From Streptomyces sp. Q6 (lineage in GTDB: Bacteria; Actinomycetota; Actinomycetes; Streptomycetales; Streptomycetaceae), in the NCBI RefSeq assembly GCF_036967205.1, contig NZ_CP146022.1, positions 6,324,001-6,388,000 on the forward strand: a stretch of 64,000 nucleotides of DNA. Direction: 5' to 3'. Shown piece after piece: positions 41,939 to 54,589 of this stretch. Made by a program: the position numbers and the translations under genes. The notes under the pieces are model-generated. The model worked only from the letters and a program-made list of their open reading frames with translations. It was not told where the DNA came from and did no database searches. Positions within the stretch are counted from its first letter, which is position 1. The number at the start of each line of letters is the position of its first letter.

Positions 41939-43144
41939 TTACCGGCTGCCGTACTTCTCACTCATGTTGTCGAAGAGCTGCTGGGCCTCGGCGCCCAGCT
42001 GCGGTCCTGCCAGCCAGGTGTTGCCGGCCGGGCCGATCGACGTGTTCGACACCAGGACGGTCTTCCCGGCGCGGACGCGGAACCAGCCGCCGCCCGACGA
42101 ACCGCCGGTCATGGTGCAGCCGATGCGGTACATCGTCGGCTGCTCGGGGCTCAGCGAGAGCCGGCCGGGACGGTCGAGGCACTTGTGCATCAGCAGGCCG
42201 TCGAACGGCGGCGCGGCCGGGTAGCCCCACGCGCCCATCGAACCGACCGACGACACCGACGGCGTCGAGAAGTCCACGGCGAGGGCCGTACCGACGGTCT
42301 CCTCCAGCGACTTGGTGCCCTGCTCCGGCTTCACGTGCAGCACGGCGAAGTCGTACGGAGCGCCCGCGCCGCCCGACGCGGCACCCTGGTCGATCCACTC
42401 GTTCGAGGTGGACGCCCAGTCCGCCCAGTAGGTGCCGTACGGGGCGATCTGCTGCTGCGTCGCGTTGCGCAGCGTGGCCGCGGACTTGCCCAGGTCGTTG
42501 TACGACGGCACGAACGCGATGTTGCGGTACCAGCCGCCCGCCGCGCCCGCGTGGACACAGTGGCCCGCGGTCCACACCAGGTTGGACTTACCGGGGTTGC
42601 GCGGGTCCTTCACGACGGTGCCGGAGCAGACCATCGAACCCTCGGGGGAGTCGAAGAAGACCTTGCCGACCGGCGCCGCGTTCCGGTGGTACGGCGTCTT
42701 CTCGGCCTGCGCCTTCACCGGCTCGGGCTCGGGGTCGGTGACGCCCTGGTCGTCGGCGTAGTCCTTCGCCGCGATCGTCTTGTTCGGGTCCTCGGCGGAC
42801 TTCATCCGCTCGGGCTTCCACAGGCCGTCGATGACCGGGTTGACGAAGTCCTTGGCCTCGCGCAGCCAGTCGTCCTTGTCCCAGTTCTTCCAGTCCCCGT
42901 TCTTCCACTTGTCGGGGTCGATGCCGTGCTTCTTCAACTTGTCGGCGACGTCGCCGGGCAGCTTCGCGCCGCTGTCGGACCCCTGCGAGGTGGTCGCGGC
43001 CGGCTTGCCGGCGGCTCCGTCGTCTGTGTCCTTGCTGTCGTTGCAGCCGGTGACGGTGAGTGCCAGCGCCGCGGCGATGCCGGTCGCGGCGAGGACGGCG
43101 CGTCGCCCGCGACCGCGCGCGACGGATGGACGTATGGAACGCAT
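41939..43144 (-). CDS. Trypsin-like serine peptidase lipoprotein, copy 1
   Basis: 401 residues. Signal peptide with lipobox VTGC (Cys34), then a Ser/Thr linker, a charged domain with DKWKNGDWKNWDKDDWLREA, and an S1-type peptidase domain: His in WTAGHCVHAG, Asp in PYDFAVLHV and Ser in CTMTGGSSGGGW. It is anchored on the outer face of the membrane. It lies 190 bp downstream of a paralogue on the same strand. Confidence 0.9.
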   Translation of the reverse strand: MRSIRPSVARGRGRRAVLAATGIAAALALTVTGCNDSKDTDDGAAGKPAATTSQGSDSGAKLPGDVADKLKKHGIDPDKWKNGDWKNWDKDDWLREAKDFVNPVIDGLWKPERMKSAEDPNKTIAAKDYADDQGVTDPEPEPVKAQAEKTPYHRNAAPVGKVFFDSPEGSMVCSGTVVKDPRNPGKSNLVWTAGHCVHAGAAGGWYRNIAFVPSYNDLGKSAATLRNATQQQIAPYGTYWADWASTSNEWIDQGAASGGAGAPYDFAVLHVKPEQGTKSLEETVGTALAVDFSTPSVSSVGSMGAWGYPAAPPFDGLLMHKCLDRPGRLSLSPEQPTMYRIGCTMTGGSSGGGWFRVRAGKTVLVSNTSIGPAGNTWLAGPQLGAEAQQLFDNMSEKYGSR

Positions 43145-43261
43145 GGTGAGATGACCCCCGGTAAAAAATGTCATGAGCGTGTCATTCGGGGCACAGGTGA
43201 CTCCGTGAACCCGCTGAGACACGGAGCCCCCACTATGCCTGGGGAGTTGGGTACGAACGGC

Positions 43262-43292
43262 GGCGGGGTGGTGAAGGTTTCTCCACCCCGCC
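43262..43292 (-). terminator. Hairpin after serine peptidase copy 2
   Basis: 10-bp perfect stem GGCGGGGTGG (43262-43271) with CCACCCCGCC (43283-43292). It separates the two paralogous genes, suggesting separate transcripts. Confidence 0.7.
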
Positions 43293-43334
43293 ACTCAGGG
43301 GTGACGCGGCCGTGAGGCAGGCGTCACCCGGGCA

Positions 43335-44558
43335 TCACCGGCCGGCGAACTTCTTGCTCACCGAGTCGTAGATCCCCTTGGCCTCCTTGCCGAGCCGCGG
43401 CCCGGCGAGCCAGCCCGCCGTCACCGGACCGATCGAGGTGTTCGACACCAGCGCCGGCTTGCCGTCCGAGCCCTGGCCGACCCAGCCGCCACCGGACGAA
43501 CCGCCGGTCATCGTGCAGCCGATCCGGTACATCGTCGGGTCCGTCTTCGTGAGCGACAGCCGGCCCGGCTTGTCCGCGCACTGGTACAGCTTCTGGCCGT
43601 CGTACGGCGGCGCCGCCGGGTAGCCCTTCGCGGTCAGCTGCGCGACCTTCGGCACCGCCGGCGCGTTGAAGTTCACCGGAAGCGCCGAACCGACCGTCTC
43701 CTCCAGGGACTTGGCGGTGCTGCCCTTCTCCGGCGTCACGTGGATCACGGCGAAGTCGTACGGAGCGCCCGCGCCGCCGGTCGGACCACCCTGCTCGATC
43801 CACTGGTCCGAGGTCTGCGCCCAGTCGCCCCACCAGACACCGTAGGGAGCGACCTCCTCCTTGGGCGCGCCCTGCAACTCCGCCGCGGACTTGCCGCTGT
43901 CGTTGTACGACGGCACGAAGGCGATGTTGCGGTACCAGCCGCCCTTCTTGCCCGCGTGCACACAGTGGCCCGCGGTCCAGATCATGTCGGACTTCCCGGG
44001 GTTGGCCGGGTCGGCGACCACGGTCGCCGAGCAGACCAGCGAACCCTCGGGCCCGTCGAAGAACAACTTGCCCGCGTACGGGGCGCTGCCGTGGTACGGG
44101 CTGGCCGCGGCCGCCGCCTGCACGGGCTTCGGCTCGGGGTCCGTCACCCCCTGGTCGCCGGAGATGTCGCTGTCGTCGACCTCGTTGTCCGGGTTCTTGT
44201 CGGCGTCACGCATGCGGTCCGAGTCCCACAGACCGTCGATGATGGGGTTGACGAAGTCCTGCGCCTCACGCAGCCACTTGTCCTTGTCCCAGTTCTTCCA
44301 CTCGCCGTTCTTCCACTGGTCGAGATCGATCCCGTGATCCTTGAGCTTGTCCTTGAGGTCGTCAGGGATCTGGATCGAGTCGCCGCCCGCGGTCGCGGAA
44401 GCGGTCGGCTTGTCGCTCGCGTCGTCCTCGCTCGGACCGCACGCCGTGGCGGTCAGAGCGAGAACCGCGCCGAGCGCAACTGCCGCCGCCACAGGGGACG
44501 TTCTGCCGCGCACGCTCCTCGAGCGGCGAGCGGCGAGCAGCGGGCGTATGGGTCGCAT
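43335..44558 (-). CDS. Trypsin-like serine peptidase lipoprotein, copy 2
   Basis: 407-residue paralogue of the downstream gene, clearly similar along its whole length: the same LDQWKNGEWKNWDKDKWLRE block, WTAGHCVHAG, YDFAVIHV and MTGGSSGGGW triad motifs and matching C-terminus. The lipobox is TATAC (Cys40). The pair arose by tandem duplication. The substrate is unknown; the unusual WKNG/NWDKD region before the catalytic domain is shared and may be a propeptide or docking element. Confidence 0.9.
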   Translation of the reverse strand: MRPIRPLLAARRSRSVRGRTSPVAAAVALGAVLALTATACGPSEDDASDKPTASATAGGDSIQIPDDLKDKLKDHGIDLDQWKNGEWKNWDKDKWLREAQDFVNPIIDGLWDSDRMRDADKNPDNEVDDSDISGDQGVTDPEPKPVQAAAAASPYHGSAPYAGKLFFDGPEGSLVCSATVVADPANPGKSDMIWTAGHCVHAGKKGGWYRNIAFVPSYNDSGKSAAELQGAPKEEVAPYGVWWGDWAQTSDQWIEQGGPTGGAGAPYDFAVIHVTPEKGSTAKSLEETVGSALPVNFNAPAVPKVAQLTAKGYPAAPPYDGQKLYQCADKPGRLSLTKTDPTMYRIGCTMTGGSSGGGWVGQGSDGKPALVSNTSIGPVTAGWLAGPRLGKEAKGIYDSVSKKFAGR

Positions 44559-45064
44559 GTCGTGAATCCCCCTGGGCTTCGAGATCGTTGCACTGCCGTA
44601 CGTGTGCGGTGGACGAGCGCCGTGGCCCCTCCCCGGACGGCACCCCACACTATGCCGGTGCCGTCGGGGACGACCGACGGAACCGCAACGGTTCCGTCAC
44701 GGAGGGATCTTGTGCGGGCCACGGATCGTTACAACCTCTCGTCCCGACGGGCACGGGGGCGGGGACGGCGTCGCACATGAGGTCGCGAACGGTCGCGAAC
44801 GGCTCGTGAACGACTTCGGTGCGGCTCGCGGACGGCACGTGGCGAAGGTCTCTTCATGAGTCCGCGTTCGACCCGTGTTCCTCCGGCCACATCGTCGTTG
44901 GTACGTACGGGGGATCCGCAGTCGGCGTTCAATCCTCGAACCGTCCTGGCATGCCAGGACGGTCCTTCTGGTCTGCGCGCGCCAACTGCCCCCGCCTTGG
45001 GATGAGTCGACGAGCCCTGTCGGCCGTATATGCAGCCATATCTGCAGCGGGAGGACCAACAGCC
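44559..45064. other. Regulatory region between divergent peptidase and siderophore operons
   Basis: 506 bp without a gene. It holds a 24-bp palindrome (44940-44963), a double GTCGCGAACG direct repeat near 44773-44792, and a purine-rich ribosome binding site before 45065. I found no classical TTAGGTTAG-type iron box. Confidence 0.6.
44940..44963. promoter_or_regulatory. 24-bp perfect palindrome upstream of the siderophore operon
   Basis: Half-sites ACCGTCCTGGCA and TGCCAGGACGGT meet without a spacer, about 100 bp before the first operon gene. It is a candidate operator for a dimeric regulator, or a short terminator for a transcript from the left. Confidence 0.55.
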
Positions 45065-46507
45065 GTGGCCGTGACCGATTCTGCGTCCGTGACGGTGCCC
45101 GCCCCGTACGACGGGGAGGCGCGCGAGAGCGTCGCACGCGACAGCGCCGTGCACGAAGGGATCCTGCGCCGCCAGTCCGCTCGGGAGTCGGCGGCGCGCA
45201 CGTATGCGCGCGCCCTGCCGATCGTGCCCGTGCGTGCCCGCGGACTCACCATCGAGGGCGCCGACGGCCGTCGCTATCTGGACTGCCTCTCCGGTGCGGG
45301 CACGCTCGCCCTCGGCCACAACCACCCGGTCGTCCTGGAGGCCATCAGGAAGGTCATCGACTCGGGCGCACCGCTGCACGTCCTCGACCTCGCCACCCCG
45401 GTCAAGGACGCCTTCACCACGGAGTTGTTCCGTACGCTGCCGGCCGGTCTCGCCGACCGGGCCCGCGTCCAGTTCTGCGGCCCGGCCGGGACCGACGCCG
45501 TCGAGGCCGCGCTGAAACTGGTCCGCACCGCCTCCGGGCGCTCCGGCATCCTCGCCTTCACCGGGGCGTACCACGGCATGACCGCGGGGGCGCTCGAAGC
45601 GTCCGGCGGCGCGCAGGACGTGCGGGTCACGCGCCTGCCGTATCCGCAGGACTACCGCTGCCCCTTCGGTATCGGCGGCCCGCGCGGCGCCGAAATCGCC
45701 GCGCGCTGGACCCGGTCCCTGCTCGACGACACCAAGTCCGGGGTGCCGCGGCCCGCCGGGATGATCCTGGAACCGGTCCAGGGGGAGGGCGGCGTGATCC
45801 CCGCCCCCGACGCCTGGCTGCGCCGGATGCGGTCCCTCACCGAGGACCGGTCGATCCCGCTGATCGCCGACGAGGTGCAGACCGGCGTCGGCCGGACCGG
45901 CGCGTTCTGGGCCGTGGAGCACAGCGGTGTCGTCCCCGACGTGATGGTCATGTCCAAGGCGATCGGCGGCAGTCTTCCGCTCGCCGTCATCGTCTACCGC
46001 GACGACCTGGACGTCTGGCCGCCGGGCGCGCACGCGGGCACCTTCCGCGGCAACCAACTCGCGATGGCCGCGGGCGCCGCCACACTCTCGTACGTCCGCG
46101 AGAACCGGCTCGCCGAGCGCGCCGGTGAACTCGGCACCCGGATGCTCGGCCAACTCCAGCATCTGGCCGAGGATTTCTCCTGCATCGGTGACGTCCGGGG
46201 CCGCGGCCTGATGATCGGCGTCGAACTGGTCGACCCGGAGGGCGCCCCCGACACCGGCCCGTCCGGCCTCGCCGACGCCCCACTGCTCGGCGCACCCGCC
46301 GCCACACCGCTCCCCGCCGCACCGGACCTCGCCGCGGCCGTCCGCGACGCGTGCCTCGACCGGGGCCTGATCGTCGAGCTCGGAGGTCGCCACTCCAGCG
46401 TCGTTCGTCTCCTGCCGCCCCTCACGATCACCGATGAGCAGGCCGCTGCCGTCGTCGACCGGTTCGCGGACGCCCTCGTGGCCGTCGCCCGTGCCCGGCA
46501 CGCCTGA
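45065..46507 (+). CDS. Diaminobutyrate-2-oxoglutarate aminotransferase family protein
   Basis: 480-residue class III PLP aminotransferase. The PLP Lys is Lys298 in MSKAIGGSLP; QFCGPAGTDAVEAALKL, FTGAYHGMT, LEPVQGEGG and ADEVQTGVGRTG are typical of L-2,4-diaminobutyrate aminotransferases such as RhbA and EctB. It should make L-2,4-diaminobutyrate from aspartate semialdehyde as siderophore precursor. A GGGAGGA at 45049-45055 supports GTG 45065. It is first gene of a four-gene operon. Confidence 0.88.
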   Translation: MAVTDSASVTVPAPYDGEARESVARDSAVHEGILRRQSARESAARTYARALPIVPVRARGLTIEGADGRRYLDCLSGAGTLALGHNHPVVLEAIRKVIDSGAPLHVLDLATPVKDAFTTELFRTLPAGLADRARVQFCGPAGTDAVEAALKLVRTASGRSGILAFTGAYHGMTAGALEASGGAQDVRVTRLPYPQDYRCPFGIGGPRGAEIAARWTRSLLDDTKSGVPRPAGMILEPVQGEGGVIPAPDAWLRRMRSLTEDRSIPLIADEVQTGVGRTGAFWAVEHSGVVPDVMVMSKAIGGSLPLAVIVYRDDLDVWPPGAHAGTFRGNQLAMAAGAATLSYVRENRLAERAGELGTRMLGQLQHLAEDFSCIGDVRGRGLMIGVELVDPEGAPDTGPSGLADAPLLGAPAATPLPAAPDLAAAVRDACLDRGLIVELGGRHSSVVRLLPPLTITDEQAAAVVDRFADALVAVARARHA

Positions 46508-46610
46508 GCCCGGTCGCACACCCCCGGCGGTAGCAGCAGCGGAACACCGGACCAGCAGCACCACGGCCCACCGCCTCACGGAGCCCACCACCCCACGCAA
46601 GGAAGCACTC

Positions 46611-48770
46611 TTGAACGCCACTCCCGCATCCGACGGCCGTCCCCGTCCCTCTGCCGGCGGCGCCTGCGACACGCAGCCCTCGCGCACTTCGGAACGCGAA
46701 ACGGTCCCGCGGCAGATGGGCGGCGGCCAAGAGGCCGAGCGTCTGCACCCGCCCACCGCGGACTCCTGGGGACATCCGGACCTCCTGGGGCACCAGGACC
46801 TTCTGGACCACCCGGACCCCACCACTGCCGCCCAGAGCGCGGCAGTCGAGAACCTGCTGCGCTGCTGGGTACGTGAGAACGCCATCACCCCTCCTTCTCC
46901 CGGCACCCTGCGCGTCCCGCTGCCCGCGAGCGGTACCGCACTCCTCGTCCCCGTCCTCTACTGGTCGCCCACCGGCTGGCACCGTCTGGGCCCGCCCCGG
47001 CTGGAGGGCGCCCCGCACAGCGCCCCCTCCGTGGACGCCGTGACCCTCGCGGCCCTGCTGGGCCGCGAATCGGTGCCCGGCGACACGGGCACGGGTCCCG
47101 GCCACGGCCGCGACGCCGAGGGCGCGGCGGCGCAGTTCGCCTCCGCCACCGACACCGCCGTCGGCGATGGTGGTGGCGGCGACGGTGGCGGAGACGACGG
47201 TGGCGGAGGCGATGGTGGCGACCTGGTGGGCCGGGTCGCCGACTCGGCCCGCCGCACGGCCACGTTCATCGCCGACCGGCGCGAGGAGCCCGCCGACGGC
47301 CCCGACCGCTTCCTCGCCGCGGAGCAGTCGCTGATCCTCGGCCATCCCCTGCACCCGACACCGAAGAGCCGCGAGGGACTCTCCGAGGCCGAAGCCCGCC
47401 TCTACTCACCCGAACTGCGCGGCTCCTTCCCGCTGCACTGGATGGCCGTGGCCCCCGACGTCCTGGCCCAGGACTCGGCCTGGACCGAGCGAGGCCGCAC
47501 GGTCTCCGCAGGCCGACTCACCTCCCGGCTGGCCGGCCCCGAGCTCGCGGTGCCCGACGGCTACGCGGCCGCCCTGCCCCTGCACCCCTGGCAGATCCGC
47601 GAACTCCAGCACCACCCCGCCACCGCCGCCCTCCTGGACGCCGGACTGCTGCGCGATCTGGGCCCGCACGGCGCCCCCTGGTTCCCCACCTCCTCCGTCC
47701 GCACCCTGTACCGCCCCGACGCACCCGCGATGCTGAAGCTCTCCCTCGGCCTGCGGATCACCAACTCCCGTCGCGAGAACCTCCGCAAGGAACTCCACCG
47801 CGGCGTCGAGGTCCACCGCCTCCTGCGCAGCGGCCTCTCCGACCAGTGGCGCGCCGCGCACCCGGGGTTCGACATCGTCCGCGACCCGGCCTGGCTGGCC
47901 GTCGACGACCTGTCCGGCGAGCCCGTCCCCGGTCTCGACGTGATGATCCGCAACAACCCCTTCCGCCCTGGCGACGACGCCACGTGCATCGCCGGCCTCG
48001 TTTCTCCACGCCCCTCCTACGCCCCCAAGGCCCACGAGGACCGGACGGCTCGCGAGGACCGCACGGACCTCACAGACCTCACGGACGTCTCGGACCGCGC
48101 GGACATGGCTGGCCGCGAAGACCGGACGGGCGGGGGTGGACCGACCCGCATGACCTCCCGTCTTGCCGACACCGTCACTCGCCTGGCGGCCCGCACCGGA
48201 CGCCCCCGCTCCGCCGTGAGCGCCGAGTGGTTCCTGCGCTATCTCGAACACGTCGTCCGCCCCGTCCTGTGGCTCGACAGCGAGGCCGGCATCGCGCTGG
48301 AAGCCCACCAGCAGAACACCCTCCTCCTCCTCGACGCCGACGGCTGGCCCATCGGCGGCCGCTACCGCGACAACCAGGGTTACTACTTCCGTGAGTCCCG
48401 CCGCGCCGAACTCGACCGGCGGCTGCCCGGCATCGGCGCCCACAGCGACACCTTCGTCTCCGACGAGGTCACCGACGAGCGGTTCGCCTACTACCTCGCC
48501 ATCAACAACGTCCTCGGCCTCATCGGCGCCTTCGGCTCCCAACGTCTCGCCGACGAGCGCCTGTTGCTCGCGGCGTTCCGCCGGTTCCTCGGCGACGCGG
48601 CCACCGGACCCGCGCGCCTGCGCAGCCCCCTGCCGAGCCGACTCCTGGACACACCGACGCTGCGCTGCAAGGCGAACCTGCTCACCCGCATTCACGGCCT
48701 CGACGAACTCGTCGGCCCCGTCGACACCCAGTCCGTCTACGTCACCATCGCCAACCCCCTCTACGCCTAG
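46611..48770 (+). CDS. IucA/IucC-family NIS siderophore synthetase 1
   Basis: 719-residue ATP-dependent ligase that condenses a carboxylate such as citrate with an amine. Key motifs: GHPLHPTPKSREGLS (ATP-binding His/Lys), LPLHPWQIREL, FPTSSVRTLYR, LKLSLGLRITNSRREN, LEAHQQNTLLLL and GRYRDNQGYYF. TTG 46611 has AAGGA seven bases upstream. Two low-complexity insertions occur: a Gly/Asp-rich run near residue 185-205 and an Asp/Arg/Thr-rich run near 480-505, both probably disordered loops. Confidence 0.9.
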   Translation: MNATPASDGRPRPSAGGACDTQPSRTSERETVPRQMGGGQEAERLHPPTADSWGHPDLLGHQDLLDHPDPTTAAQSAAVENLLRCWVRENAITPPSPGTLRVPLPASGTALLVPVLYWSPTGWHRLGPPRLEGAPHSAPSVDAVTLAALLGRESVPGDTGTGPGHGRDAEGAAAQFASATDTAVGDGGGGDGGGDDGGGGDGGDLVGRVADSARRTATFIADRREEPADGPDRFLAAEQSLILGHPLHPTPKSREGLSEAEARLYSPELRGSFPLHWMAVAPDVLAQDSAWTERGRTVSAGRLTSRLAGPELAVPDGYAAALPLHPWQIRELQHHPATAALLDAGLLRDLGPHGAPWFPTSSVRTLYRPDAPAMLKLSLGLRITNSRRENLRKELHRGVEVHRLLRSGLSDQWRAAHPGFDIVRDPAWLAVDDLSGEPVPGLDVMIRNNPFRPGDDATCIAGLVSPRPSYAPKAHEDRTAREDRTDLTDLTDVSDRADMAGREDRTGGGGPTRMTSRLADTVTRLAARTGRPRSAVSAEWFLRYLEHVVRPVLWLDSEAGIALEAHQQNTLLLLDADGWPIGGRYRDNQGYYFRESRRAELDRRLPGIGAHSDTFVSDEVTDERFAYYLAINNVLGLIGAFGSQRLADERLLLAAFRRFLGDAATGPARLRSPLPSRLLDTPTLRCKANLLTRIHGLDELVGPVDTQSVYVTIANPLYA

Positions 48771-48917
48771 CCCCGAGCGCTGCTCCCCGATCCCGCTCGA
48801 CCCTGCCCCCTCCGCACCCCCGAGAACCCGCGTCCTTTTGCGACCCGCGAACCCGAGGACCCCGCCTCACACCCCCACCTGACCCCCTTCCTGACCCTTC
48901 CTGAGAGGAGCGTCGCC

Positions 48918-49706
48918 GTGCCCCCCATCGATGCGAGCACCGACGCAGGCACCGCACCCGTCGCCGAGCCCCGTACGTCCGCCGCGCGCGCGGAGAACAC
49001 CGACGGCCAGGACACCCTCGACCTCCGGCTCCCCGACGAACTGCTCGCGCTCATCGCCGAACAGAACGCCACCGGCCCGGGCACCGGGCCCGCCACCACG
49101 GGCCGCCCGGACCGCCCCACAGCGCTGACCGAGCACGATCTGCTCGACGACGTGGGGGAGTGGGGCCCCGTCGCCACCCCCTCAGGCGTGTTCCAACTCA
49201 TCCCGGCCCGCGTCGAACGTGACGTGCCGCTCATCAGCCGGTGGATGAACGACCCGGCGGTGGCCGCCTTCTGGGAACTCGCGGGACCCGACAGCGTGAC
49301 CGCGGACCACCTGACCCCCCAGCTCGACGGCGACGGGCGCAGCGTCCCCTGTCTCGGCGTCCTCGACGGCACGCCGATGAGCTACTGGGAGATCTACCGC
49401 GCCGACCTCGATCCGCTGGCCCGCCACTACCCCGCCCGCCCGCACGACACCGGAATCCACCTCCTCATCGGTGGTGTCGCCAATCGCGGCCGAGGGCTCG
49501 GGACCACCCTCCTCAAAGCCGTCGCCGACCACGTGCTCGACCATCGCCCGCAATGCGCGCGCGTCGTGGCAGAACCCGACCTTCGCAACACCCCTTCCGT
49601 CTCAGCCTTCCTCAGCGCTGGTTTCCGCCTTTCTGCCGAGGTGGACCTCCCCGACAAACGGGCGGCGCTCATGATGCGTGACCGAGCCCTGCGCGCCGCG
49701 CTCTGA
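48918..49706 (+). CDS. GNAT acyltransferase of siderophore type (RhbD/IucB-like)
   Basis: 262 residues. A variable acidic N-terminus is followed by the AlcB/IucB-type acetyltransferase domain: FQLIPARVERDVPLISRWMN, SYWEIYRADLDPLARHY, HLLIGGVANRGRGLGTTLL (acetyl-CoA loop) and RVVAEPDLRNTPSVSAFLSA. It would acylate an amine or hydroxylamine on the siderophore building block. GTG 48918 has GAGGAG at 48905-48910. It lies between the two synthetase genes. Confidence 0.88.
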   Translation: MPPIDASTDAGTAPVAEPRTSAARAENTDGQDTLDLRLPDELLALIAEQNATGPGTGPATTGRPDRPTALTEHDLLDDVGEWGPVATPSGVFQLIPARVERDVPLISRWMNDPAVAAFWELAGPDSVTADHLTPQLDGDGRSVPCLGVLDGTPMSYWEIYRADLDPLARHYPARPHDTGIHLLIGGVANRGRGLGTTLLKAVADHVLDHRPQCARVVAEPDLRNTPSVSAFLSAGFRLSAEVDLPDKRAALMMRDRALRAAL

Positions 49707-49764
49707 GCCGGTCACTCACAGTAACGAAGTTCGACCCGATCCGGTTCCCTCGCGAGGAGTCCCC

Positions 49765-51708
49765 GTGCCGAATCCGTCCATCGTCCCGAGTTCCGCAGAG
49801 CAGCCCGCGCTGTACGACCCGCCCGAGCTCACGCGTGAGAACTGGGACAGGGCGGGTGCGCGGCTGCTGGCCAAACTGATCGGCGAGTTCGCTTACGAGG
49901 ACCTGTTCCGGCCGGTGCCCGAGGACCCCGCGGCGGCGGCAGGGCCCGGCCACCACCCCCACACCCTGACGATCCCGCCCGGCCCGGACTCCGCCGGCGG
50001 CGTGCTCCGCTTCCGCGCCCGCCGGGGGGCGTACGGCAGCTGGCAGGTCGACCCGGCAAGCCTGCGCTGGTCAGCCGCACCGGCCGAGTCCACCACCGAC
50101 GAGCGGGCCACGAACCAGCCGACCACGAATCAGCAGGCCACGGACGAGCCGACCACCCATGGATCGGCCACCGAGGAACGAGCCACCGACCCACTGGCCT
50201 TCCTTCTGGCCGCCAAACACGTCCTCGGCCTGGACGGCACCACCCTCGGCCACCTCATCCGCGAACTCACCGTCACCCTCGCCGCCGACGCCCGCCTCGA
50301 CCACACCGCTTTGAGCGCCGACGGGCTCGCCGACCTCGGCTACGCGGAACTGGAGGGGCACCAGACCGGTCACCCCTGGATCGTCCTCAACAAGGGCCGC
50401 CTCGGCTTCTCCGCCTCCGACACCTCCCGGTGGGCCCCCGAGGCCCGTCGCCACACCAGCCTCCCCTGGATCGCGGTGCACACGGGTCTCGCCACCTACC
50501 GGGGCGCGGCCGGCCTGGAATCCGCGGACGGGCTCTACGCGCGGGAACTCGACGGGCCCGTCCGGCAGCTGTTCGCGGACACGCTCCGTGCTCGCGGCCT
50601 GGACCCGGCCGCGTACCTCTACCTTCCCGTGCACCCCTGGCAGTGGGACGACGTCGTGCTGCAACTGTTCGCACCCTCCGTCGCCACGAACGCGATCGTC
50701 CCGCTCCCCACCGACGGCGACCTGCGCCTGCCCCAGCAGTCGATCCGTACGTTCCTGAACACCACCCGCCCGGAGCGGCACACGGTGAAACTGCCGCTGT
50801 CGGTCCTCAACACCCTTGTCTGGCGCGGACTCCCCACCGAGCGCACTCTCGCGGCTCCCGCGGTCACCACATGGATGCACGGACTGCGGGACGCCGACGC
50901 CTTCTTGCGGGACGAATGCGGTGTCATCCTGCTGGGCGAAGTCGCCTCCGTGACGGTGAAGCACCCGCTCTACGACGGCCTCGACGAAGTGCCGTACCAG
51001 TACAAGGAGCTGCTCGGCGCGATCTGGCGCGAGCCCGTCGCGCGGCACCTCGCACCCGGGGAGCGCGCCCGCACCCTCGCCTCCTTGTTGCACACCGACC
51101 CTGAAGGACGCGCGTTCACCGCGGAGCTCGTCGTCCGCTCGGGCCTCGACCCGAAGACCTGGCTGCGCCGCCTCTTCGCCGCACTGCTGCCGCCCCTGCT
51201 GCGCTTCCTCTACCGCTACGGCACCGTGTTCTCCCCCCACGGCGAGAACGCCATCGTGGTCTTCGACGACCAGGACGTACCCGTACGCCTCGCGGTCAAG
51301 GACTTCGTGGACGACGTCAACATCAGCGCCGAGCCGCTCCCCGAACACGACTCCATGCCCCAGGACGTACGGAACGTCCTCCTCACGGAGCGCCCGTCCT
51401 TCCTCACCCAGTTCATCCACTCCGGGCTCTTCGTCGGCGTCTTCCGCTATCTGGCGCCCCTGTACGAGGCTCAACTCGGCGTCCCCGAGGAAGAGTTCTG
51501 GACGCTGCTGCGCGCCGAGATCCTGCGCCACCACGCCCGCTTCCCCGAGCTGAAGGACCGCTACGAGATGTTCGACCTGCTCACCCCGCGCATCGAGCGG
51601 CTCTGCCTCAACCGCAACCGGCTGCACCTCGACGGTTACCGCGACCGCTCCCACCGCCCGCACGCCGCGGTGGAGGGCACCGTCGCCAACCCCCTGCACC
51701 AGCCTTGA
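49765..51708 (+). CDS. IucA/IucC-family NIS siderophore synthetase 2
   Basis: 647-residue second synthetase, of the AlcC/RhbF/DesD-like group: GHQTGHPWIVLNKGRLGFS (ATP-binding), LYLPVHPWQWDDVV, QQSIRTFLNTTRPERHTVKL, YRYGTVFSPHGENAIVVFDD and VKDFVDDVNIS. It probably performs the second amide bond to citrate or a later condensation. A Thr/Gln/Ala-rich low-complexity stretch lies at about residues 110-140. GTG 49765 has a GAGGAG-type ribosome binding site; an in-frame ATG at 49678 would overlap the previous gene. Confidence 0.9.
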   Translation: MPNPSIVPSSAEQPALYDPPELTRENWDRAGARLLAKLIGEFAYEDLFRPVPEDPAAAAGPGHHPHTLTIPPGPDSAGGVLRFRARRGAYGSWQVDPASLRWSAAPAESTTDERATNQPTTNQQATDEPTTHGSATEERATDPLAFLLAAKHVLGLDGTTLGHLIRELTVTLAADARLDHTALSADGLADLGYAELEGHQTGHPWIVLNKGRLGFSASDTSRWAPEARRHTSLPWIAVHTGLATYRGAAGLESADGLYARELDGPVRQLFADTLRARGLDPAAYLYLPVHPWQWDDVVLQLFAPSVATNAIVPLPTDGDLRLPQQSIRTFLNTTRPERHTVKLPLSVLNTLVWRGLPTERTLAAPAVTTWMHGLRDADAFLRDECGVILLGEVASVTVKHPLYDGLDEVPYQYKELLGAIWREPVARHLAPGERARTLASLLHTDPEGRAFTAELVVRSGLDPKTWLRRLFAALLPPLLRFLYRYGTVFSPHGENAIVVFDDQDVPVRLAVKDFVDDVNISAEPLPEHDSMPQDVRNVLLTERPSFLTQFIHSGLFVGVFRYLAPLYEAQLGVPEEEFWTLLRAEILRHHARFPELKDRYEMFDLLTPRIERLCLNRNRLHLDGYRDRSHRPHAAVEGTVANPLHQP

Positions 51709-51748: not shown

Positions 51749-53722
51749 ATGACGAAGCCCTCACTCCCCGATCTCCTGCACGCCGCCGTCACCTCGGTCG
51801 GCGGCACGGAGCGCCCTGGCCAGGTGACCATGGCCGAGACCGTCGCCGAGGCGATCGACGGCGGTTCCCATCTGCTGGTCCAGGCGGGCACCGGCACCGG
51901 AAAGTCCCTGGGCTACCTGGTGCCGGCCCTCGCGCACGGGGAGCGTGTCGTGGTCGCGACGGCGACGCTGGCGCTACAGCGCCAGCTCGTCGAGCGGGAC
52001 CTGCCGCGCACCGTCGAGGCGCTCCACCCGCTGCTGCGCCGCCGCCCCAGCTTCGCCATGCTCAAGGGCCGGTCGAACTACCTGTGCCTGCACCGCCTCC
52101 ACGAAGGCGTGCCGCAGGAGGAGGAAGAGGGCCTCTTCGACCAGTTCGAGGCGGCCGCGCCGACGAGCAAGCTCGGCCAGGACCTGCTGCGCATGCGGGA
52201 CTGGGCGGACGAGACCGAGACAGGCGACCGGGACGACCTCACCCCCGGTGTCTCGGACCGCGCCTGGGCCCAGGTGTCGGTGTCCTCACGGGAGTGCCTC
52301 GGCGCGTCCAAGTGCGCGTACGGCCAGGAGTGCTTCGCGGAGATGTCCCGCGAGCGCGCCAAGCTCTCCGACGTCATCGTGACCAACCACGCGCTCCTCG
52401 CGATCGACGCCATCGAGGGCGCCCCGGTCCTGCCGCAGCACGAGGTCCTGATCGTGGACGAGGCCCACGAGCTGGTCTCACGAGTCACTGGCGTGGCGAC
52501 CGGCGAGCTGACCCCGGGCCAGGTCAACCGCGCGGTCCGCCGCGCCGCGAAGCTCGTGAACGAGAAGGCCGCGGACCAGCTCCAGACCGCCGCCGAGGGC
52601 TTCGAGCGGCTCATGGAGCTGGCCCTGCCCGGCCGCCTCGAAGAGATCCCCGAAGACCTCGGCTACGCGCTGATGGCGCTGCGCGACGCCTCCCGCACGG
52701 TGATCACGGCCCTCGGCTCCACGCGCGACAAGTCCGTCCAGGACGAGGACGCCGTCCGCAAGCAGGCCCTCGCCTCCGTGGAGACGATCCACGACGTCTC
52801 CGAGCGGATCACGAACGGATCGGAGTGGGACGTCGTCTGGTACGAGCGCCACGACCGCTTCGGCGCTTCCCTCCGCGTCGCCCCCATGTCCGTGTCGGGG
52901 CTGCTGAGAGAGAAGCTCTTCTCCGACCGTTCCGTGGTCCTGACCTCGGCGACCCTCAAGCTCGGCGGCGACTTCAACGGCGTGGGCGCGTCCCTGGGTC
53001 TCGCCCCCGAGGGCACGACAGGGGACGACCTCCCGGTGTGGAAGGGTGTCGACGTCGGCTCGCCGTTCGACTATCCGAAGCAGGGCATCCTGTACGTCGC
53101 CAAGCACCTGGCCCGCCCCGCGCGCGAGGGCACCCGCAGCGACATGACGGACGAACTGGCCGAGCTGATGCAGGCCGCCGGCGGCCGGACGCTGGGCCTG
53201 TTCTCCTCCATGCGCGCCGCGCAGGCCGCGGCGGAGGAGCTGCGCACCAGGCTCCCCGAGTTCCCGATCCTGCTCCAGGGCGAGGACACCCTCGGCGAGC
53301 TGATCAAGAACTTCGCGGCCGACCCGAAGACCTGTCTGTTCGGCACGCTCTCACTGTGGCAGGGCGTGGATGTCCCCGGACCCAGCTGCCAGCTGGTGGT
53401 CATGGACAAGATCCCGTTCCCGCGCCCCGACGACCCACTGATGAGCGCCCGCCAGAAGGCGGTCGAGGACGCGGGGGGCAACGGCTTCATGGCGGTGGCG
53501 GCGACGCATTCCGCGCTCCTGATGGCACAGGGCGCGGGCCGCCTCGTACGGGCGACGGGGGACCGCGGCGTCGTCGCGGTGCTCGACCCCCGCCTGGCCA
53601 CGGCCCGCTACGGAAGCTATCTGCGGGCTTCGATGCCGGACTTCTGGTACACGACGGACCGCAATCAGGTACGCCGCTCGCTCTCGGCGATCGACGCGGT
53701 GGCGAAGGCCGACGGCACGTAG
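51749..53722 (+). CDS. DinG/XPD-like ATP-dependent helicase
   Basis: 657-residue superfamily 2 5'-to-3' DNA helicase. Walker A AGTGTGKS is at residues 46-53 and the DEAH box is IVDEAHEL. Four cysteines placed for an iron-sulfur cluster follow Walker A: SNYLC, then RECLGASKCAYGQECF. Motif V/VI sequences (LWQGVDVPG, QGAGRLVRATGDRG) are intact. No SOS box was seen upstream. It is convergent with lexA, with a hairpin between. Confidence 0.92.
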   Translation: MTKPSLPDLLHAAVTSVGGTERPGQVTMAETVAEAIDGGSHLLVQAGTGTGKSLGYLVPALAHGERVVVATATLALQRQLVERDLPRTVEALHPLLRRRPSFAMLKGRSNYLCLHRLHEGVPQEEEEGLFDQFEAAAPTSKLGQDLLRMRDWADETETGDRDDLTPGVSDRAWAQVSVSSRECLGASKCAYGQECFAEMSRERAKLSDVIVTNHALLAIDAIEGAPVLPQHEVLIVDEAHELVSRVTGVATGELTPGQVNRAVRRAAKLVNEKAADQLQTAAEGFERLMELALPGRLEEIPEDLGYALMALRDASRTVITALGSTRDKSVQDEDAVRKQALASVETIHDVSERITNGSEWDVVWYERHDRFGASLRVAPMSVSGLLREKLFSDRSVVLTSATLKLGGDFNGVGASLGLAPEGTTGDDLPVWKGVDVGSPFDYPKQGILYVAKHLARPAREGTRSDMTDELAELMQAAGGRTLGLFSSMRAAQAAAEELRTRLPEFPILLQGEDTLGELIKNFAADPKTCLFGTLSLWQGVDVPGPSCQLVVMDKIPFPRPDDPLMSARQKAVEDAGGNGFMAVAATHSALLMAQGAGRLVRATGDRGVVAVLDPRLATARYGSYLRASMPDFWYTTDRNQVRRSLSAIDAVAKADGT

Positions 53723-53803: not shown

Positions 53804-54589
53804 TCAGACGCGCCGCAGTACGGCAACCACCTTGCCCAGGATGGTCGCCTCGTCACCAGGAATCGGCTGGTACGCGGAGTTGTGCGGCAGCAGCCACACA
53901 TGGCCGTCCTCACGCTTGAAGCGCTTCACGGTGGCCTCGCCGTCCAGCATGGCGGCCACGATGTCACCGTTCTCGGCGACCGGCTGACGGCGGACCGTGA
54001 CCCAGTCACCGTCGCAGATCGCGGCCTCGATCATGGAGTCGCCGACGACCTTCAGGACGAACAGCTCACCGTCACCGACCAGCTGCCGGGGGAGCGGGAA
54101 GACATCCTCGACCGACTCCTCGGCGAGGATCGGCCCACCGGCGGCGATCCGGCCGACCAGCGGCACGTACGAGGCCGCCGGCTTGCCCGCGGTGTCCGTG
54201 GGCTGCGCGCTGGGCTGGTCCGAGCCCCGGACCTCGTACGCGCGAGGACGGTGCGGGTCCCTGCGCAGGAAGCCCTTGCGCTCGAGAGCCATCAGCTGGT
54301 GGGCGACCGACGACGTGCTGGACAGGCCGACCGCCTGACCGATCTCCCGCATCGACGGCGGGTAGCCCCGACGCTGCACCGAGTCGCGGATGACCTCGAT
54401 CACCCGACGCTGCCGGTCGGTGAGGCCCGAGCTGTCCGCGCGGATCCCTGGGGGTCGGCCGGGCAATGAGCGCCCGGGCTTGGGACCCTCCTGGCTCATG
54501 GATGCGTCATTCATGGCATGCACCGGCTCGAGTCGGCCCTGGGAGTGGCCCTGGGCAGTGATGGTGGCGCTGTCTGCGGTCGTGGTCAC
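53804..54589 (-). CDS. lexA: SOS repressor LexA
   Basis: 261-residue transcriptional repressor and self-cleaving protease. The N-terminal winged helix ([32 protein letters not shown]) binds SOS boxes; the cleavage site is Ala150-Gly151 in RIAAGGPI, with catalytic Ser185 (GDSM) and Lys222 (DGEATVKRF). A 50-residue N-terminal extension is longer than in E. coli. GTG 54589 is the start. A box 69 bp upstream indicates autoregulation. Confidence 0.97.

Follow-up and report, generated by a model that had tools for sequence, protein, structure and literature searches.

The csb locus of Streptomyces sp. Q6, probably one half, in reduced form, of a siderophore pathway that was once complete

Introduction

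Among the closest described relatives of the locus studied here are the pathways to rhizobactin 1021 and schizokinen. They unite a type-A and a type-C synthetase of the nonribosomal peptide synthetase (NRPS)-independent siderophore (NIS) class with an aminotransferase and an acyltransferase in one operon, and the rhizobactin 1021 operon, rhbABCDEF, also holds the decarboxylase gene rhbB and the hydroxylase gene rhbE. A four-gene operon of Streptomyces sp. Q6 shares the rhbA-C-D-F order, encoding an aminotransferase, a type-A NIS synthetase, a GNAT acyltransferase and a type-C NIS synthetase. It occupies positions 45065..51708 of a stretch of 64,000 nucleotides (the window; C1:6324001-6388000 of the 8.95 Mb genome) and adjoins dinG-lexA, and candidate genes for the rhbB and rhbE functions lie unlinked in the same genome. 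We propose, with somewhat better than even confidence, that this operon is the reduced half of a rhizobactin/schizokinen-type pathway and that the unlinked pair of genes supplies the missing steps in trans. Rhodochelin and erythrochelin, both made by NRPS pathways, are earlier examples of a siderophore whose biosynthetic genes are encoded far apart.

The original prediction for this DNA described an orphan locus beside lexA and considered it the best candidate here for an undescribed pathway. The first part holds, but the locus is the published cryptic cluster csb (PMC9600172), an orphan siderophore cluster in one of the best-studied bacterial genera. This identification is made from gene content and flanks: csbA-B-C-D stands between an orf1-type gene and dinG-lexA-nrdR, as in Table 1 of that paper. 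It describes csb in Streptomyces sp. YIM 121038, with identical gene order and flanks and with an iucD-like gene missing; purified CsbC preferred succinyl-CoA over acetyl-CoA with amine-bearing antibiotics as substrates, and also succinylated putrescine and ornithine; disruption of csbC failed, and liquid chromatography-mass spectrometry (LC-MS) showed no csb product (PMC9600172). In S. coelicolor, SCO5799-SCO5801 had already been listed as a putative siderophore-type cluster (PMC3224560, PMC7324645). Our locus resembles these in the csbA-D set, in the flanks orf1, DinG, LexA and NrdR and in the missing hydroxylase. By its gene numbers S. coelicolor has three genes only, without csbD, and probably belongs with the csbD-less loci described below. 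The portions of PMC9600172 consulted propose no trans supplier, complete orthologue or promoter. New here are the complete orthologous operons in other genera of Streptomycetaceae, the unlinked pair, and the loci with a conserved promoter and without an iron box; in the open-licence literature searched we found no earlier report of these operons, of the pair as a supplier in trans or of this promoter.

Results and Discussion

Gene content of the csb operon

The four genes have the coordinates and order originally predicted:

45065..46507, + strand: csbA (dat), RhbA-like diaminobutyrate-2-oxoglutarate aminotransferase, 480 aa; TIGR00709 above cut-off
about 46611..48770, + strand: csbB, RhbC/IucA-like type-A NIS synthetase; PF04183 and PF06276; nearest solved structures IucA, then AcsD
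48918..49706, + strand: csbC, RhbD/IucB/MbtK-like GNAT N-acyltransferase, 262 aa; PF13523; N-terminal extension of ~90 aa
about 49765..51708, + strand: csbD, RhbF/IucC/DesD-like type-C NIS synthetase, 647 aa; PF04183 and PF06276; nearest structures DesD, AlcC and IucC

The rhbA-C-D-F-like order is borne out by the family matches. CsbA reaches 476.5 bits against TIGR00709 (the dat family; cut-off 401.6) and 2e-86 against Pfam Aminotran_3, carries the lysine motif SKAIGG, and starts at a GTG that is conserved together with its ribosome-binding site. CsbB and CsbD match IucA_IucC at 1e-64 and 7e-71 with an FhuF domain in each, and the motifs HPWQ, SxRT-like and HxxN, looked for in the two synthetases, are present. 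CsbC matches Acetyltransf_8 (PF13523) at 2e-48 and is nearest to MbtK, BH2621 and Rv1347c, with SidF and DfoC also matched; by homology and its N-terminal extension it may be an N-succinyltransferase. As predicted, genes for a decarboxylase and an N-hydroxylase (rhbB and rhbE) are absent from the operon, and neither exporter nor receptor was found among the neighbours scanned.

Complete orthologous operons and the probable loss of two genes

A family search led to 20 fetched csbB-like loci, of which 16 belong to Streptomycetaceae of other genera. The hydroxylase gene is kept in seven of these 16, together with the decarboxylase gene ddc in five (L179-L182 and L191) and by itself in L190 and L194, the latter cut at a contig end; eight are reduced (L183-L187, L189, L192, L193), and L188 is another cluster type, type Z. 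The full order in L191 and L181 is dat-ddc-nisA-gnat-hydroxylase-nisB-dinG; L180 shows it without nisB, and L190 and L194 read nisA-gnat-hydroxylase-nisB-dinG. The flanks are those of csb, namely a lipoprotein-like gene and dinG in L190 and L191, dinG in L180, L181 and L194, and the lipoprotein-like gene in the complete loci L179 and L182. Complete csb orthologues hold all six functions of the rhizobactin 1021 (rhbABCDEF)/schizokinen pathway.

A csbB tree rooted at the midpoint gathers the 32 csb rows in a single clade (98/91). The complete loci L179 and L182 branch first, and the remainder (100/99) is an open fork of L194, of L191, L181, L180 and L190 with the reduced L187 (94/64), and of a group that joins Streptomyces to the remaining reduced loci (95/82). 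Outside csb stand three cluster types, X, Y and Z, all complete, which like complete csb hold homologous NIS genes, decarboxylase and hydroxylase, with an acyltransferase also in X and Z; the named loci of these types come from a contig scan of the best 80 matches and are not a census. Because complete types surround csb in this tree, the complete operon is likely to be the ancestral state and the reduced form derived, with a second loss in L187. We regard the complete orthologues as the strongest evidence that the window operon is an rhb-type pathway minus two genes.

An unlinked decarboxylase-hydroxylase pair

A genome search for rhbB and rhbE homologues, which the original prediction had suggested, found the following pair:

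C1:2184048-2186868, 4.2 Mb from csb: tandem decarboxylase and hydroxylase genes

PF13434 has eight matches in the Q6 genome, and the two strong ones are DesB and the unlinked hydroxylase (C1:2184048-2185481), whose gene overlaps that of the decarboxylase by 4 bases. For the decarboxylase the best NCBIfam model is RhbB (258.7 bits, under the cut-off of 900) and the top solved structure is annotated as diaminobutyrate decarboxylase, followed by a desferrioxamine decarboxylase. The hydroxylase has its closest solved structures in an unnamed monooxygenase, a putrescine N-hydroxylase and a desferrioxamine enzyme, well above ornithine hydroxylases. The 20 kb surrounding the pair showed no NIS gene; its neighbours encode a nucleotidase, pyruvate kinase and beta-galactosidase and, by eye, a PepN-type peptidase and chorismate mutase. 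A hydroxylase acting in trans had been foreseen as an alternative, and that idea survives; the desferrioxamine cluster then named as its source is not needed, since a closer rhb-type pair exists in the same genome.

In the hydroxylase tree all 21 unlinked copies fall into a single clade whose sister is the copy that S. lycii carries in a NIS cluster (L155; 100/100), and both lie inside the group of type-Z NIS clusters (100/99). In a second hydroxylase tree the copies at complete csb sites group with type Y. At the type-Z loci L138, L145, L146, L155, L157 and L171 such a hydroxylase has as neighbours a synthetase and an acyltransferase whose best pairwise scores are with csbB and csbC, and five of these six loci also have a decarboxylase that most resembles the unlinked one. 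The decarboxylase tree joins the unlinked copies to three Z and two Y copies (100/100), L138 and L145 being represented in it by a second, X-like decarboxylase. As the unlinked copies nest in type Z and the csb-site copies go with type Y, the pair has the look of a substitute drawn from a sister pathway, not of displaced csb genes.

Distribution of csb and the pair

The distribution was read by hand from match lists of 101 genomes of the genus, with csbD counted at 68% identity or more, fragments included, and at most 12 to 15 candidates scored per genome; co-occurrence over the whole set covers csbD and the hydroxylase of the pair. csbD was found in 60 genomes, the hydroxylase in 92 and both in 56, that is, 56/60 csbD carriers and all 32 of those with at most 10 contigs (G010 and G012 by partial matches); the match in G037 is ambiguous (62%). 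A csbB-like gene is present in 60/61 family genomes and 17/17 genera. Four of the 41 csbD-less genomes were rechecked (G013, G067, G087, G095) and all carry csbB: their loci L175-L178 have csbB-csbC at the csb site without csbD, L175 lacking csbA also, and L139, L152 and L168 are likewise csb sites without csbD. G107, G108 and G109 yielded no NIS synthetase besides csbB and csbD, and no hydroxylase besides the unlinked one and another, which we take to be coelichelin-like.

Co-occurrence was dropped as a proof of trans supply; with csbD as marker the table compares csbD presence, not csb presence, and Fisher's p is 0.48. Since the four rechecked genomes, out of the 41, all carry csbB, finding the pair where csbD is missing counts less strongly against a link than we first assumed. 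A dependence of csbD loss on another type-C synthetase is a lead only (p 0.044, hand-read lists, one of several looks).

A conserved promoter-like element and the absence of an iron box

About 450 bases upstream were scanned, with an iron box accepted at 4 or fewer mismatches, in 65 reduced loci: 50 csbD-bearing Streptomyces loci (the window included, three without csbA), 7 without csbD and 8 from other genera. An iron box was found in 0/65 reduced loci, 4/6 complete csb loci, 10/10 of type X, 3/6 of type Z and 2/5 of type Y; L194 was left outside the iron-box and promoter counts of complete loci. The window contains no TTAGGTTAGGCTAACCTAA-like iron box at up to 3 mismatches, and a perfect one lies upstream of desA in the same genome. 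Upstream of csbA we found instead a conserved element:

44874..44901, + strand: promoter-like element CGTGTT-N16-CGTTGG, proposed -35/-10 of extracytoplasmic function (ECF) type

The pattern CGTNNN-N16-CGTTGR occurs in 44/50 csbD-bearing Streptomyces loci, 1/7 without csbD, 5/8 reduced loci of other genera and 2/6 complete loci (L179 and L181, which carry iron box and element together); types X, Y and Z together gave 0/21, and the reverse strand 0/92 upstreams. A looser count, 51/53 loci with the promoter core, was set aside, since in three-gene loci some of its matches fall outside the promoter by chance. Four of the five reduced other-genus carriers (4/8 loci) have the form CGTTGC-N16-CGTTGA, which resembles the sigma-BldN consensus CGTAAC-N16-CGTTGA, and the window form, CGTGTT-N16-CGTTGG, can be set beside it. 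The matches to a stricter BldN pattern were only of a form ending in CGTTGC, outside that consensus, and among chaplin upstreams CGTTAC-N16-CGTTGA was found in 1 of the 10 that could be oriented, out of 12 loci.

From the lack of an iron box and the ECF-type promoter, iron starvation is probably not what induces the reduced operon. Published data on S. coelicolor point the same way: SCO5799 and SCO5801 both rise in the reproductive mycelium, to log2 0.4/1.3/1.8 and 0.8/1.8/1.3 respectively at 24/48/72 h relative to 16 h, and desA and the coelichelin genes are down at 48 and 72 h (PMC3610822). Because csbD-less loci mostly lack the element, this expression supports independence from iron more than it supports the promoter itself. 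The SCO5799-SCO5801 genes also appear in the copper experiments of PMC6414726. Compared with rhizobactin 1021, csb differs in that no iron box, exporter or receptor was seen at the locus, and in that a homologue of its acyltransferase prefers succinyl-CoA.

Upstream of the unlinked pair in Q6 (L017) we read CATGAT-N16-CGTTCA, and several orthologous pair upstreams have ATCGTTGG-like words. A promoter common to csb and the pair was set aside as suggestive only; the -35 parts differ and the Q6 copy lacks the common element. In L066, L068, L071, L073, L077 and L081 a shared GTACC..CTTTCGGGTTC.GATCGTTGG-like element precedes ddc, in csbD carriers and in genomes lacking csbD alike; L017 and L064, of the window's own clade, do not show it. 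Three loci (L054, L055, L056) have csbB-C-D without csbA, and the csb promoter element stands before csbB in two of them. Between the window's promoter element and csbA, positions 44940-44963 form a perfect 24-base palindrome, ACCGTCCTGGCATGCCAGGACGGT, which is not conserved in 17 aligned orthologues.

A proposed split pathway

The complete orthologues, the unlinked pair and the three genomes in which no NIS synthetase other than csbB and csbD was found lead us to regard the pathway as probably divided between two loci and not as deficient. We propose that an ancestor had the diaminobutyrate decarboxylase and the diamine N-hydroxylase in the csb operon and later lost them there. Judged by the protein families, CsbA would form L-diaminobutyrate, which the unlinked pair would convert to 1,3-diaminopropane and then to its N-hydroxy form. 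CsbC would acylate the hydroxylamine, succinyl transfer having been demonstrated for its homologue on other amines and acetyl being possible; CsbB would couple the acylated amine to citrate and CsbD would attach the second arm. The product may be schizokinen ([M+H]+ 421.193) or a succinylated C20H32N4O13 ([M+H]+ 537.204), with a mono-succinyl form calculated at 479.198 and the corresponding Fe(III) forms of schizokinen, mono- and bis-succinyl compound at 474.104, 532.110 and 590.115; alternatively CsbD, a relative of DesD, might join succinyl ends to amines, giving longer chains.

Cultures of S. anulatus, S. mutomycini and one other strain in SM17 are reported to give schizokinen, partly as a tentative assignment (PMC11865988, PMC13136089); SM17 is described as the sole medium to which no iron had been added (PMC13136089). 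The draft genome of S. mutomycini yielded csb as its sole NIS pair, and the unlinked decarboxylase and hydroxylase genes were both not found in it. Schizokinen from csb is possible; assigning these reports to csb was set aside in view of the draft that lacks both pair genes.

Several findings weigh against the split pathway. The LC-MS search for a csb product came up empty (PMC9600172), and if csb makes schizokinen, its appearance in an iron-poor medium argues against independence from iron. By the trees, the unlinked hydroxylase does not appear to descend from one lost at the csb site, and the sister grouping of csbB and type-Z NisA (83/42 in one tree) was not recovered in another. The best NCBIfam model of the unlinked hydroxylase is histamine N-monooxygenase (400, under the cut-off of 700). 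The Q6 decarboxylase (C1:2185481-2186868; L017:11482-12869, - strand) is read in two frames, 12869-12603 and 12603-11482, by either assembly error or real damage; in its 20 orthologues the N-terminal motif is in frame in 16, the motif leaving 4 unresolved. The pair looks less constrained than csbA-D: the ratio of nonsynonymous to synonymous substitution rates (dN/dS) is 0.52 and 0.67 between L017 and L064 and 0.27-0.50 in four other genome pairs, against 0.07-0.37 for csbA-D in three ortholog pairs. The hydroxylase occurs at a similar frequency in genomes that lack csbD (36/41) and was not found in the csbD-carrying drafts G008, G050, G081 and G101 (S. mutomycini), while csbA is missing from 3/20 loci and csbD from others.

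Some of these points bear on the possibility that the pair serves another pathway and that csb draws its amine from other enzymes, such as EctB or general decarboxylases. The equal frequency of the hydroxylase in genomes without csbD, its absence from four draft csb genomes, the type-Z lineage of the pair and an upstream element unlike that of csb would all fit. Against this, the 20 kb around the pair show no NIS gene, and its closest relatives sit in NIS clusters with csbB- and csbC-like genes; we consider this explanation rather unlikely.

Distinctly less probable in our estimate is an extension of the split pathway in which its siderophore moved from iron control to a developmental, BldN-like promoter, two genes left the operon, and the chelator would serve the reproductive mycelium or spores. 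Such a chelator would perhaps be an intracellular iron store or carrier, by analogy with fungal ferricrocin, which would fit because exporter, receptor and iron box are missing.

The original prediction favoured a carboxylate-type siderophore, in which the synthetases link CsbA-made L-diaminobutyrate directly to citrate and the amino-acid carboxylates chelate the iron. The retention of csbA in 17/20 loci of an operon without decarboxylase and hydroxylase speaks for it, as does the best NCBIfam model of both synthetases, the staphyloferrin B enzyme SbnF (far under its cut-off). It is also favoured by the lack of a hydroxamate product in the csb literature (PMC9600172). Against it, the orthologous loci hold ddc and the hydroxylase gene, csb has retained a hydroxylamine-type acyltransferase, and neither synthetase is closest to type B: the type-B structure 7cbb ranks low in both structure lists. 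The pathways to achromobactin and staphyloferrin B use a type-B synthetase and no hydroxamate acyltransferase, a combination that csb does not show. We judge the carboxylate product improbable.

Similarly improbable is that csb no longer makes a siderophore, CsbC serving as a broad N-succinyltransferase (in antibiotic modification, for example) while the remainder decays. CsbC does succinylate many amines in vitro (PMC9600172), and csbA or csbD is missing at some loci; however, the low dN/dS of csbA-D, the conserved promoter element and the csbB-like gene in nearly all family genomes, with only 1/16 fetched other-genus loci being another cluster type, all oppose decay. Least probable is a supply of N-hydroxycadaverine by DesA/DesB for a citrate-cadaverine hydroxamate, which the desA-desB-desC-desD-like set of the Q6 genome (L018) and the DesD-like match in many csb genomes would allow, but which leaves csbA without a role and is opposed by G107, G108 and G109, where no DesD-like synthetase or DesB-like hydroxylase was found, and by the 16/60 csbD carriers without a second match at 1e-60, an absence that is not firm with at most 12 candidates scored per genome.

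A known orphan cluster now has a likely explanation: it would be one half, in reduced form, of a pathway whose ancestral state was complete, with the other half elsewhere and the promoter changed. The complete orthologues suggest the ancestral product, the unlinked pair a possible place of the missing steps and the promoter when to look, so that "no product found" becomes a short mass list, two loci and a growth condition. For genome mining the caution is that a cluster incomplete locally may be complete genome-wide.

Flanking genes and related clusters

The operon is bordered by the following genes:

41939..43294, - strand: second of two tandem genes upstream, by eye similar to lipoprotein genes; Trypsin_2 match weak (Pfam 4e-4, under cut-off)
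43335..44558, - strand: up437, divergent from csbA, by eye similar to lipoprotein genes; corresponds in position to orf1 of the csb paper
51749..53722, + strand: DinG/YoaA-like helicase, downstream flank, conserved in 20/20 loci
53804..54589, - strand: lexA, downstream flank; TIGR00498 above cut-off; conserved where the fetched stretch extends that far

Beyond lexA lie nrdR and nrdJ, and further out from the operon an HflX-like GTPase and an M1 peptidase. The gene up437 adjoins the operon in 20/20 Streptomyces loci and 12/16 other-genus loci, and the second upstream copy is present in 13/20 fetched Streptomyces loci, a count in which short stretches may cut off a copy. Both genes of 41939-44558 (- strand) match trypsin-like Pfam families weakly, under the cut-off, and csb has one or two such genes beside it in 20/20 loci.

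Among the related clusters, type X was also met in Pyxidicoccus, Myxococcus and Corallococcus and in a record named Comamonas sp. KCTC 72670 (L107, L109, L112, L117, L127), with NisA 75-80% identical to that of Streptomyces and no iron box at these five loci; a transfer between phyla is possible. The type-Y loci L031 and L033 have an Orn/DAP-type decarboxylase beside their NIS genes, and L033 a glutamine-synthetase-like gene as well.

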